Part shown: positions 55,123-63,409 of the stretch, in pieces
Layout: each line of letters starts with the position of its first letter
Position numbering within the stretch: position 1 is the first letter of the stretch
Source of the DNA: Diplonema papillatum
Taxonomy: Eukaryota > Euglenozoa > Diplonemea > Diplonemida > Diplonemidae
NCBI GenBank assembly: GCA_030068145.1
Contig: JAPJBO010000724.1
Location: 1-64,000, forward strand
Length of the DNA: 64,000 nucleotides
Reading direction: 5' to 3'
Position numbers and translations under genes: made by a program
Notes under the pieces: generated by a model
The model's input: the letters and a program-made list of their open reading frames with translations, nothing else
What the model was told of the DNA's origin: nothing
Databases searched by the model: none

Positions 55123-55198
55123 CGGAAAAGGTCGCGTTGGCAGAAACGGTGAAGATGATAATTGTCACAGGGTTGGTGAAATGAAAGCGAGAATGTGG
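55123..55198 (-). repeat. B2 split direct repeat, YRE-1 copy b
   Basis: 76 bases identical to 55303-55378, with offset 180. The overlap with A2 is at 55179-55198. Confidence 0.92.
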
Positions 55199-55302
55199 GG
55201 TAAGCCCTGATTATTAGATTCACGGTTAAACGAAGCTAGCGCACAAGGTTTGCCTGATCTCGCACCTACTTTCCGATACCAAATAGATGCTCTATTCAAA
55301 CT
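55179..55302 (-). repeat. A2 split direct repeat, YRE-1 copy b
   Basis: 124 bases matching 58684-58807 (one change: gatctcgc for gatttcgc). The outer end caaact abuts cggaaaagg of B1, the presumed circle junction. Confidence 0.92.
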
Positions 55303-55378
55303 CGGAAAAGGTCGCGTTGGCAGAAACGGTGAAGATGATAATTGTCACAGGGTTGGTGAAATGAAAGCGAGAATGTGG
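55303..55378 (-). repeat. B1 split direct repeat, YRE-1 copy b
   Basis: Copy of B2 next to the internal region. Confidence 0.92.
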
Positions 55379-55490
55379 AATAAAAATCCCTGGACGTGAA
55401 ACTCAAAGAGCTGAGATCCCGCTGCCTCCGGGTCTCGCAAAGAATAGCGCTATCAGGAGCGCAAATACAAAACTTCCGAGGTAAAGATCC

Positions 55491-61300: not shown

Positions 61301-63042
61301 GTGAGATATTAGAAGAATTGCTCTGGGCCTCGAGGTACCACGGACAGGAAGCCGGCGAGAGGGGTGAGGGCAAGGAGTATCCACCCTTTCTTCCTAAGGG
61401 AATTCCGACGGCGACACCGTTGTCAAGGTCAACCCGTTTGGACGATTTTCCGACAGGCCGGGTTAGGTTCGGAGTGATTCGAGAATTTGCTGCGGCGGAA
61501 TCGCGTCCCGCTGATTTCCTCGACTGGTGTACGGAGGCAAACCTGTTCGAGCAGAACATGAAAGAGGCGTTTCCACTGCCGGGAAAGCCGTCGGACCTGC
61601 GGCCGAGTTTTTTAAAACAGTGCGAAGAGGCCGGAGTCATTCAGCGACTCAAGCGGTGTGACGTAAAGAAGGGTTCGGTCAGCGTTTTCGATATTCCGAA
61701 GGCGGATCCACTCGTTCGGCGGTTAATCGTTGACGGGCGCCCCATCAATTCAAGACTGCCAAAACCACCAAGCTTTAGTCTGGTGGGACCTCACGAGCTC
61801 GGGCAGCGGCTGAAGGTACAAGGCGCGAAGTGGGCTCAAAAGATAGACATGAAGGGTTATTTCCATCAGTTCGAATTGTCAGAGGCCGTCGCCAATTTCT
61901 TCTGTTTGCGATGCGGGTCCACGTGGTACAAATGGAAGCGTCTGCCAATGGGATTCAGCTACGCGCCGTACATTGCGCAGAAGACATCGGAAGCAATTCT
62001 CGGAGAACTTTTGCTGAAGGGGGCGGTCGTGTACCTAGACGACATCATAGTTTGGGGATCAACAAGGGAAGAAGTGCAGCAGAGGGTAGCGTATATCCTA
62101 CGGCGATTGGGACGGGCCGGTATCGAAGTAAACTGGAAAAAATCTATGCCTAGGCCAGAACAGCAATTCGAGTACATCGGAGTTCGGTGGGATCTCCGGG
62201 AAAATCGGTTCACGCTCCCAGAGGAGTGGAGATTAAAGGCGATGGGAACAGCGACGGAGCGACTGGGTAGCTCAGAAAAGGCCGCATTGAGGGAGTGGTG
62301 GTCGTTGCTGGGCCTCGTTTTTCGGGTGGCGTTCGTTTACGAGGTAAACCTATGTTTCTTGGAGAACGTGCTGTCATTTGCACGGACTTGGGCAAAAGCG
62401 GTGACAGAGAATCGGGCAGACTGGAGTACGACGTGCAACATGGCCAAAACCCCTAGGGATGAAGCAGGGTCCTTCTTCAAAAAGTTCACAGCGACCGAAA
62501 GGTGGGCCTACACGCGACCGGCTCCGCCTTCAGAGTTCGACATTGCAGTGTGGTCTGACGCCTCAACTACAGGGTGGGCGCATGTTTCTCAGATATGGAA
62601 GAGAGTCGGGGCTGTGGCGGTTTACGGGACATGGAGACGTAGGATGGAGTCGGGGGACATGTATGTCTTGGAGATGTTAGCGGCAGAAAAGGGGATTAAT
62701 GCCGCAATACGAAGCGGGCACAAGCGCATCATGCTGTTCGTTGACAACGAGGCGACCATGATCTCTTTTCAGAAAGGCCACTCGAGGAGTAGACTCGCGA
62801 ATTCTGTACTGCGGCGCGTGTACAAGATGCTTGAGACAGAACGCGCAGGCCTCGTGGTCAAGTGGATCCCGACTGCTTCGATGCCGGCCGACTACTGGTC
62901 GCGCCTACCGGATTGCGGCGTTAAGAATATCGAGACGTGCATGGAGGGTGTATCCGAGATGGAAAGAGGATTGCAAGTTGTTCAGGGCTTGCGCGATCCT
63001 GTGCAGTCCCGAACTCGCTCCCCTCGATCGATTTTGCGTTAA
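61297..63042 (+). CDS. Reverse transcriptase/RNase H of YRE-2 (581 residues)
   Basis: Copies element RNA into DNA. It starts with the ATG that overlaps the recombinase stop (ATGA), suggesting termination-reinitiation. RT signals: RRLIVDGRPINSRLPKPPSF, motif A QKIDMKGYFHQF, motif B LPMGFSYAPYIAQ, motif C VYLDDIIVW (about residue 245), followed by NWKKS and the thumb. RNase H: VWSDASTTGWAH, LEMLAAE, LFVDNEAT and ADYWSRL give the D-E-D-D set. The last 30 residues are encoded by repeat B1. No methyltransferase or endonuclease domain. The longer frame from 59698 includes shadow sequence opposite gag and the recombinase. Confidence 0.92.
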   Translation: MSEILEELLWASRYHGQEAGERGEGKEYPPFLPKGIPTATPLSRSTRLDDFPTGRVRFGVIREFAAAESRPADFLDWCTEANLFEQNMKEAFPLPGKPSDLRPSFLKQCEEAGVIQRLKRCDVKKGSVSVFDIPKADPLVRRLIVDGRPINSRLPKPPSFSLVGPHELGQRLKVQGAKWAQKIDMKGYFHQFELSEAVANFFCLRCGSTWYKWKRLPMGFSYAPYIAQKTSEAILGELLLKGAVVYLDDIIVWGSTREEVQQRVAYILRRLGRAGIEVNWKKSMPRPEQQFEYIGVRWDLRENRFTLPEEWRLKAMGTATERLGSSEKAALREWWSLLGLVFRVAFVYEVNLCFLENVLSFARTWAKAVTENRADWSTTCNMAKTPRDEAGSFFKKFTATERWAYTRPAPPSEFDIAVWSDASTTGWAHVSQIWKRVGAVAVYGTWRRRMESGDMYVLEMLAAEKGINAAIRSGHKRIMLFVDNEATMISFQKGHSRSRLANSVLRRVYKMLETERAGLVVKWIPTASMPADYWSRLPDCGVKNIETCMEGVSEMERGLQVVQGLRDPVQSRTRSPRSILR

Positions 63043-63106
63043 TCGCCCCGATGGCTTCACGTTTCTTACCGATGAAGAGAGTAAAGGTCCGAACGAGACC
63101 CCCCTC
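63003..63106 (+). repeat. B1 split direct repeat, YRE-2
   Basis: Same as 63305-63408 (offset 302). Includes the end of the RT frame. Confidence 0.95.
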
Positions 63107-63335
63107 TAAGCAAACTTGTTTGAGCACCTTCGGTGCGTCTTGGGGGGTCGAGCTGAGGACCTATGGAACAAGGATATATGTTGTTGGGCGACAAGCCCTG
63201 AGTATTTGAGTCCACTTGCTCCAGGGCAAGGTTGGAAGGGGACGATTCGGAAACTTAAGGATTCGGAATTAGCAAATAACGCAGGCAAATTCCTCCCTCC
63301 TCCCGCAGTCCCGAACTCGCTCCCCTCGATCGATT
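63107..63335 (+). repeat. A2 split direct repeat, YRE-2
   Basis: Same as A1 (offset 4284). Joined to B1 as ccctct|aagcaaac, the presumed circle junction. Confidence 0.95.
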
Positions 63336-63409
63336 TTGCGTTAATCGCCCCGATGGCTTCACGTTTCTTACCGATGAAGAGAGTAAAGGTCCGAACGAGA
63401 CCCCCCTCT
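63305..63409 (+). repeat. B2 split direct repeat, YRE-2
   Basis: 3' end of the element. The terminal cccccctct merges with ctctctc of the target. Confidence 0.95.

Follow-up and report, generated by a model that had tools for sequence, protein, structure and literature searches.

Probable VIPER/TATE-kind retrotransposons, with the tyrosine recombinase ahead of the reverse transcriptase, in the diplonemid Diplonema papillatum

The genome of the free-living marine protist Diplonema papillatum contains retrotransposons in which a tyrosine recombinase (YR) is encoded between a gag-like gene and the reverse transcriptase/ribonuclease H (RT/RH), and the question raised by the locus described here is whether these elements belong with the VIPER and TATE elements of kinetoplastids or came to the same gene order on their own. 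The window, i.e., the whole 64,000-nucleotide stretch analysed, comprises positions 1-64,000 (forward strand) of contig JAPJBO010000724.1 from assembly GCA_030068145.1, and its right end is a cluster of YR retrotransposons in one CT-rich stretch. From left to right, this cluster consists of a solo A-B remnant of family YRE-3, (CT)n, copy b of family YRE-1, a short (CT)n, YRE-2, another short (CT)n and finally the beginning of a YRE-3 copy, where A and B are the split direct repeats of the elements. With a probability of about 0.68, we regard the elements as retrotransposons of the VIPER/TATE kind, most likely kept from a euglenozoan ancestor.

A preliminary description of this window had placed the recombinase between gag and the RT in YRE-1 copy b and in YRE-2, and this order was confirmed by the coordinates of the open reading frames (ORFs) inside the split repeats. 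The features of YRE-1 copy b are as follows:

55121..58808, minus strand: YRE-1 copy b, whole, 3,688 bp, A1-gag-YR-RT/RH-B1-A2-B2 (from split direct repeats and ORFs)
58684..58808, minus strand: A1 repeat, 124/125 identical to A2
57863..58633, minus strand: gag-like ORF, with its ATG at 58633
57233..57859, minus strand: YR (ORF, matches to other YRs)
55494..57125, minus strand: RT/RH, motif C WYDD (Pfam RVT_1, 6.6e-9; alignment)
55301..55383, minus strand: B1 repeat, 81/83 identical to B2
55179..55303, minus strand: A2 repeat, pairing with A1
55121..55203, minus strand: B2 repeat, with the 3' end in (GA)n on the element strand (split repeat)

Those of YRE-2, on the opposite strand, are:

58820..63409, plus strand: YRE-2, whole, 4,590 bp, A1-gag-YR-RT/RH-B1-A2-B2 (from split direct repeats and ORFs)
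58820..59051, plus strand: A1 repeat, 231/232 identical to A2
59055..59909, plus strand: gag-like ORF
59855..60315, plus strand: tandem repeats of 63 bp, each unit coding for 21 residues, where gag and YR overlap
59429..61297, plus strand: YR frame, with the catalytic part at 60674-61297 and R, HxxR, H and Y present
61309..63039, plus strand: RT/RH, motif C YLDD (Pfam RVT_1, 2.2e-19)
63003..63107, plus strand: B1 repeat, 105/105 identical to B2
63104..63335, plus strand: A2 repeat, pairing with A1
63305..63409, plus strand: B2 repeat, with the 3' end in (CT)n

The gag-like ORF of YRE-1 showed a weak N-terminal C2HC-like zinc finger (Pfam E-value 0.007, under the cut-off), and that of YRE-2 had no Pfam match. 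The YR of YRE-2 was recognised by Pfam Phage_integrase (6e-4, under the curated cut-off) and by a PHROG integrase family (1.6e-11), and the R, HxxR, H and Y residues were all present in the YRs of YRE-2 and of two other loci, L054 and L070. The YR of YRE-1 was weakly recognised (PHROG integrase, 0.0068), and its longer version from locus L010 had no match in Pfam at E 1 or in PHROGs at E 0.1; the YRE-1 YR nevertheless matched L070-type YRs at about 6e-7, the L070 YR itself being a Pfam Phage_integrase (1.1e-8). Relative to the L010 protein, about 141 N-terminal residues are missing from the YR of window copy b, so that a full recombinase may not be made from this copy; a longer YRE-1 YR frame, of 350 aa, is present in other copies among the matches listed. 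In YRE-2, YR frame lengths elsewhere mostly step by 21 aa (e.g., 623, 707, 728, 749, 770), which suggests that the copy number of the 63-bp repeat varies among copies. In YRE-2, L010 (YRE-1), L070 and L054, the RT is read at -1 relative to the YR, and frameshifting need not be invoked, since the host has trans-splicing.

The 5' ends of YRE-2 (58822-58860) and of locus L068 (446-480) share a motif with two small dyads, which differ between the two by compensating bases (e.g., GCACC/GGTGC versus GCGCC/GGCGC). RNA folding of three A-repeat stretches gave energies that were not unusual compared with shuffles.

Whether the order recurs was examined by searching the RT and YR proteins of the elements across the 271 Mb genome and pairing them by coordinates within 3 kb. 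The counts refer to the best-scoring matches listed, with all listed rows used in the pairing; the gag-first order was read in the window elements, and the genome-wide pairing covers YR and RT. Further copies in the same genome, which the preliminary description had proposed to look for, were abundant: in three RT lineages together, 230 of 314 RT matches had a same-strand YR upstream, 2 had it downstream and 1 had it on the opposite strand. For YRE-1, the figures were 42 upstream, 2 downstream, 1 opposite and 35 with none (n = 80). YRE-2 and its relatives, whose paired matches reach as low as 35% RT identity, gave 78 upstream, 0 downstream and 6 with none (n = 84, two YRE-1 rows on contigs C18 and C940 having been excluded from 86 YRE-2 RT matches). 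The third lineage, which came to light through its YR and was read in L070, gave 110 upstream, 0 downstream and 40 with none (n = 150); 26 of these 40 belong to a 75% subfamily with no YR near them among the matches listed, and partial YR rows would add 6 to the upstream count. The median YR-RT gaps in the three lineages were 108, 177 and 489 bp.

Copies with the recombinase after the RT, which the preliminary description had named as evidence against its reading, were limited among the matches listed to the two downstream cases, whose YRs lie 1.8 and 2.2 kb off and whose RTs both come from a class without a YR of its own; the reading was thus not refuted by this check. These two, together with 1 upstream (2,855 bp) and the 1 opposite (2,999 bp) match, are the YRE-1 pairs more than 1 kb apart, and such pairs are probably neighbouring elements.

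These counts also bear on the idea that the order is a product of nested insertion, for instance of a Crypton YR DNA transposon that landed downstream of gag and ahead of the RT, or that it reflects a fault of the assembly. YR genes with no known RT partner do exist in this genome (contigs C204, C643, C728, C844, C956 and C1837; C14, C289, C735 and C1068), with Pfam Phage_integrase matches of up to 2.4e-12, and one of them (L071) has no RT within 1.4 kb downstream. Against this stand the upstream position of the YR in most of the RT matches listed, at tight median gaps, and the window repeats, which enclose gag, YR and RT together; a Crypton is a YR without RT, whereas the window elements hold the RT/RH inside the same repeats as the YR. 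We rejected this explanation as highly improbable, because the arrangement recurs among the RT matches listed. Another locus, L069, contained no YR and was by eye LINE-like or host sequence.

The two window families had been called unrelated-looking, a view that has to be corrected: the YRE-2 RT/RH finds the YRE-1 RT at an E-value of about 1e-50 with 31% identity, and the families are thus diverged but related. An IQ-TREE phylogeny of RT/RH (unrooted, 7 rows, three long branches) separated YRE-1, YRE-2 with L068, and L070 with YRE-3, with 4 of 4 inner branches well supported. RT identity between the three lineages is 24-30%, and because lineages so far apart all have the YR before the RT, the gag-YR-RT order is old in this host; the earlier suggestion that a shared order points to an old lineage was thereby borne out.

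A spliced-leader pattern (the kinetoplastid/diplonemid form, with at most one mismatch allowed) had 423 matches in the genome versus 0 for the reversed control, and on contig C1335, U2 snRNA genes alternate with the spliced leader in a unit of about 1,240 bp. The published D. papillatum assembly measures about 280 Mb, and in it spliced-leader, 5S and U2 genes are reported to alternate as many as 27 times, a unit that seems to be missing from other diplonemids (PMC10161547). Since the spliced-leader matches and the U2 alternation are as published for D. papillatum, the host is this species or a very close one (Euglenozoa, Diplonemea); a brown alga, which base composition had hinted at, was discarded as host on the spliced-leader result. 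Diplonemids are described as the sister group of kinetoplastids, outside Kinetoplastea (PMC10161547, PMC12278014).

No methyltransferase domain was found by a Pfam scan (E 0.1) of the gag, YR and RT/RH proteins of YRE-1 and YRE-2, and the elements are bounded by direct repeats, whereas DIRS1 has inverted ones at its termini and a complementary region inside; the sole inverted pair of at least 24 nt in 42500-64000 lies at 46784-46849, outside the elements. The YR gene is the last one in DIRS1, as it is in PAT and TOC3. DIRS1, whose YR recombines a circle at a 3-bp identical site with no target duplication, parallels the exchange proposed for the diplonemid elements, and it differs from them by inverted terminal repeats and a methyltransferase (PMC3266345). 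PAT, TOC3 and Kangaroo share the split direct repeats, but they carry a methyltransferase domain, and the Kangaroo YR is inverted (PMC4157794). Ngaro likewise has split direct repeats and no methyltransferase, but its RT/RH precedes the YR (PMC8547959), whereas in the diplonemid elements the YR precedes the RT; 15 Ngaro families have been reported from Ectocarpus (PMC12477816).

The closest anatomical match was with the kinetoplastid elements. VIPER, reported from hosts including Trypanosoma cruzi and Bodo saltans, likewise has gag followed by overlapping YR and RT/RH frames, between split direct repeats of the form A1...B1A2B2; its short form SIRE consists of A2+B2, like the diplonemid solo A-B, and it has no target duplication (PMC6681497, PMC12278014); the diplonemid ends lie in repeats that would hide a short one. 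The elements described here are likened to VIPER by anatomy and are unlike it in their diplonemid host and their microsatellite target; in addition, no hepadnavirus-like RNase H signal was found in the five segments scanned. TATE is described with RT/RH as the third ORF after a gag-like ORF and YR, and with split repeats in at least one copy; its copies are reported to cluster in tandem within the telomeric hexamer, itself a short tandem repeat (PMC6681497). The diplonemid targets differ from it, being (GA)n/(CT)n and (GAA)n and not the telomere repeat at 49/49 readable YRE-1 and YRE-2 ends of the fetched loci. More than 60 Diplonema ORFs, not further specified there, have been reported to resemble proteins of "DNA transposons including TATE, MULE and Helitron" by a study that deferred rigorous transposable element identification and in whose main text the names DIRS, VIPER and Ngaro occur 0 times (PMC10161547); a later paper cites it for low transposable element diversity (PMC12278014). 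VIPER is described as known only from kinetoplastids (PMC3783388, PMC6681497), and no paper recognised as describing VIPER-like elements outside them was found in a literature search whose coverage mostly excludes subscription journals.

The preliminary description had left two options, namely a VIPER-like lineage outside kinetoplastids or a second origin of the order. In the second, the YR would have moved forward in a Ngaro- or PAT-like ancestor within diplonemids, and the likeness to VIPER and TATE would be convergent. For both RT and YR, the trees of such elements in the literature are reported to be poorly resolved (PMC6681497), Ngaro and PAT also have split repeats, and the RNase H result given below fits such a history as well. 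However, the order is common to three distant RT lineages and hence old in the host, the host belongs to the sister group of kinetoplastids, and none of the six element proteins scanned with Pfam matched a methyltransferase family, and we consider an independent origin rather improbable. The first option appears the better of the two by anatomy, host phylogeny and the reported TATE-like ORFs: its order is real and recurrent and its host lies in the sister group, and a shared ancestor with VIPER and TATE is suggested by anatomy and host phylogeny.

Several observations nevertheless weigh against a common origin with VIPER and TATE. In the YR of YRE-1, KxxR replaces HxxR ahead of H and Y, and this K in place of the first H was found in 29 of 29 matching YRE-1 frames of the fetched loci, overlapping loci being counted repeatedly. 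Type IB topoisomerases likewise carry a lysine near the KxxR place. No YR was listed for 81 of the 314 RT matches, and the partnerless YR genes, which may be Crypton-like or YR-last, leave room for a YR-last family in the genome. The RNase H of VIPER is reported to group with hepadnaviruses (PMC6681497), and five RNase H segments searched against Pfam at E up to 10 gave no hepadnavirus-type family, in a search in which HMMER filters drop most weak matches.

Other searches were as follows. No relatives of the elements were found in three scans of viral and genome contig collections, and Rfam gave no match at the gathering score on the window. A PDB sequence search returned 17 sequences, named reverse transcriptase, Gag-Pol/Pol or enzymatic polyprotein; of two further ones, one returned none and the other a single XerC-like chain (E 5e-4).

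Three sets of results, on microsatellite targeting, recombination products and YR-less lineages, go beyond the preliminary description. Regarding the first, all readable outer 3' ends of the fetched loci lay in microsatellites, i.e., 30/30 for YRE-1 (26 in GA, 4 in GAA) and 19/19, in CT, for YRE-2 including an 85% relative, and the control for microsatellite targets gave 45 of 55,039 window positions. One row per family scored as "other" but starting with a GA or CT run was counted as microsatellite, one extra YRE-2 3' end was too near the locus end to be read, and L053, a rearranged locus, was counted with the internal junctions though its sequence soon departs. Since at all of these ends YRE-1 has GA or GAA and YRE-2 has CT on its own strand, both families choose their orientation. 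The internal B1|A2 junctions, ...CCGAG|TTTGAATAG in YRE-1 and ...CCCCCCTCT|AAGCAAAC in YRE-2, which were also read in copies outside the window, have the same edges as the outer ends, and GAG/CTC is common to target and junction. Where YRE-1 sits in (GAA)n, in four copies, the edge is CCGAA, as if the exchange took the target base. The element ends are clean but lie inside tandem repeats, where a short target duplication would not show. The single copy of the further family at L068 is bounded by (CA)n, and other lineages may use other simple repeats.

With regard to recombination products, 19 of 40 scored YRE-2 A repeats had neither RT nor YR among the matches listed beside them (40 of 464 candidates being scored, with 8 short 31-base matches not counted; some of the 19 lie near contig ends), and solo A-B remnants were directly read at L004 and L007. 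Contig C2170 (19.9 kb) holds four YRE-2-relative units arranged head to tail, whose RT and YR recur every 4,681 bp; the units meet at B|A junctions with no microsatellite between them, and the seven loci L055-L061 contained no CT/GA tract of at least 14 nt. Both products, the solo remnant and the array, are those predicted by YR recombination.

Taken with the split repeats, and with the models published for DIRS1 and for split-repeat YR elements, these junctions suggest the following cycle. The RNA would be copied by RT/RH into a closed circle with a B|A junction, which the YR would recombine with a matching short genomic sequence, GAG/CTC in (GA)n.(CT)n or in (GAA)n. While the junctions themselves are seen, the exchange between junction and target is proposed; it would fix the orientation and leave no recognisable target duplication. 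If the left end recombined in this way with the internal B1|A2 junction, a solo A-B would remain; if a circle integrated at the junction of a resident copy, a head-to-tail array would result.

In each of the three lineages, some copies bear an RT and lack a YR. Among them are YRE-1 copy a, YRE-3 and the L068 copy, in which a long RT/RH frame is accompanied by element repeats. The YR-less families and copies are represented in the window by:

7..2382, minus strand: YRE-1 copy a, RT without YR, A1-RT/RH-B1, with A2 truncated where the contig ends and the RT frame at 293-2134
54803..54998, plus strand: solo A-B remnant of YRE-3 (third family, without YR), in the CT-rich tract of the cluster
63417..64000, plus strand: YRE-3 copy, 5' part, with the RT core beyond the window (contig 64229-64663)

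Among the YRE-1 matches listed, a class with a frame of 672-674 aa (37 rows, RT identity 93-98%) has no YR of its own, its only YR pairs being four at 1.8 to 3 kb; of the remaining 43 rows, 41 have a YR directly upstream and 2 have none. YRE-3 is abundant, with 103 of 150 scored matches listed identical to the RT core and another 4 reaching 99%, across no fewer than 142 of 145 residues. RT motif C is WVDN in YRE-3 and L070 (L070:1595-2110; L007:1-1230), where other RTs show YLDD, WYDD or CYDD, and yet many copies of this lineage are near-identical.

Copy a and a YR-less copy at L003 are homologous in the leader that links A1 to the RT, and over 209 codons their synonymous divergence (dS) is 0.42 and their nonsynonymous divergence (dN) 0.05 (dN/dS 0.12). 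Copy a compared with the autonomous copy b gave a dN/dS of 0.07 over 518 codons, and young YRE-3 copies among themselves gave 0.08 to 0.32, with few changes. From these codon comparisons, it seems that the RT of the YRE-1 lineage was retained by selection after the loss of YR and most of gag. YR-less copies could instead be dead by-products of autonomous elements: the YR and most or all of gag are gone, relaxed selection is hard to see where many copies are near-identical, the selection could date from the autonomous ancestors of each subfamily, and counts from the best-scoring matches listed favour intact frames. The pair of copy a and L003, diverged at dS 0.42 and yet sharing their leader at a dN/dS of 0.12, speaks against this, and we consider it unlikely, if less so than an independent origin of the gene order; repeated recent YR loss from unseen autonomous relatives is an alternative that keeps some weight for the YRE-1 lineage. 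In the reading that we favour, the YR-less derivatives would borrow the YR, and probably gag, in trans, those of the YRE-1 lineage keeping their RT under purifying selection.

The remainder of the window contains other features. A single uninterrupted open frame of 2,458 aa at 30688-38064 (plus strand) encodes a large lectin-like protein with 10 Laminin_G_3 stretches (Pfam 9e-122), and a putative LINE-like reverse transcriptase fragment was noted by eye at 45939-46481 (plus strand; VDFMKCFDRLPHEI). At 46952-47806 lies a 57-bp tandem repeat, with about 11 copies in register, which is open in several frames on both strands. It is followed at 48248-54822 (plus strand) by a run of long frames, the last of which (52870-54819) is an ankyrin-repeat protein (Pfam) whose frame enters the CT tract of the elements.

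A broader picture can be offered tentatively, at a little under even odds. Diplonemids may hold several anciently diverged gag-YR-RT lineages whose recombinase is specialised for simple repeats, with microsatellites serving as safe docking sites, and each lineage may support YR-less partners that retain an RT of their own under selection (WVDN and not YxDD in one lineage) and take the YR, and probably gag, from others, a divided-labour system that would be older than the kinetoplastid-diplonemid split.

If the kinship with VIPER and TATE is confirmed, the gag-YR-RT order would be no younger than the ancestor that diplonemids share with kinetoplastids, and the many new sequences could help to resolve the badly resolved tree of YR retrotransposons. 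D. papillatum is reported to be already genetically manipulable (PMC12621601). The elements offer a clear natural record of YR chemistry in their microsatellite targets, solo remnants and arrays, and the YR-less lineages pose the question of whether an element can persist with its own RT alone.

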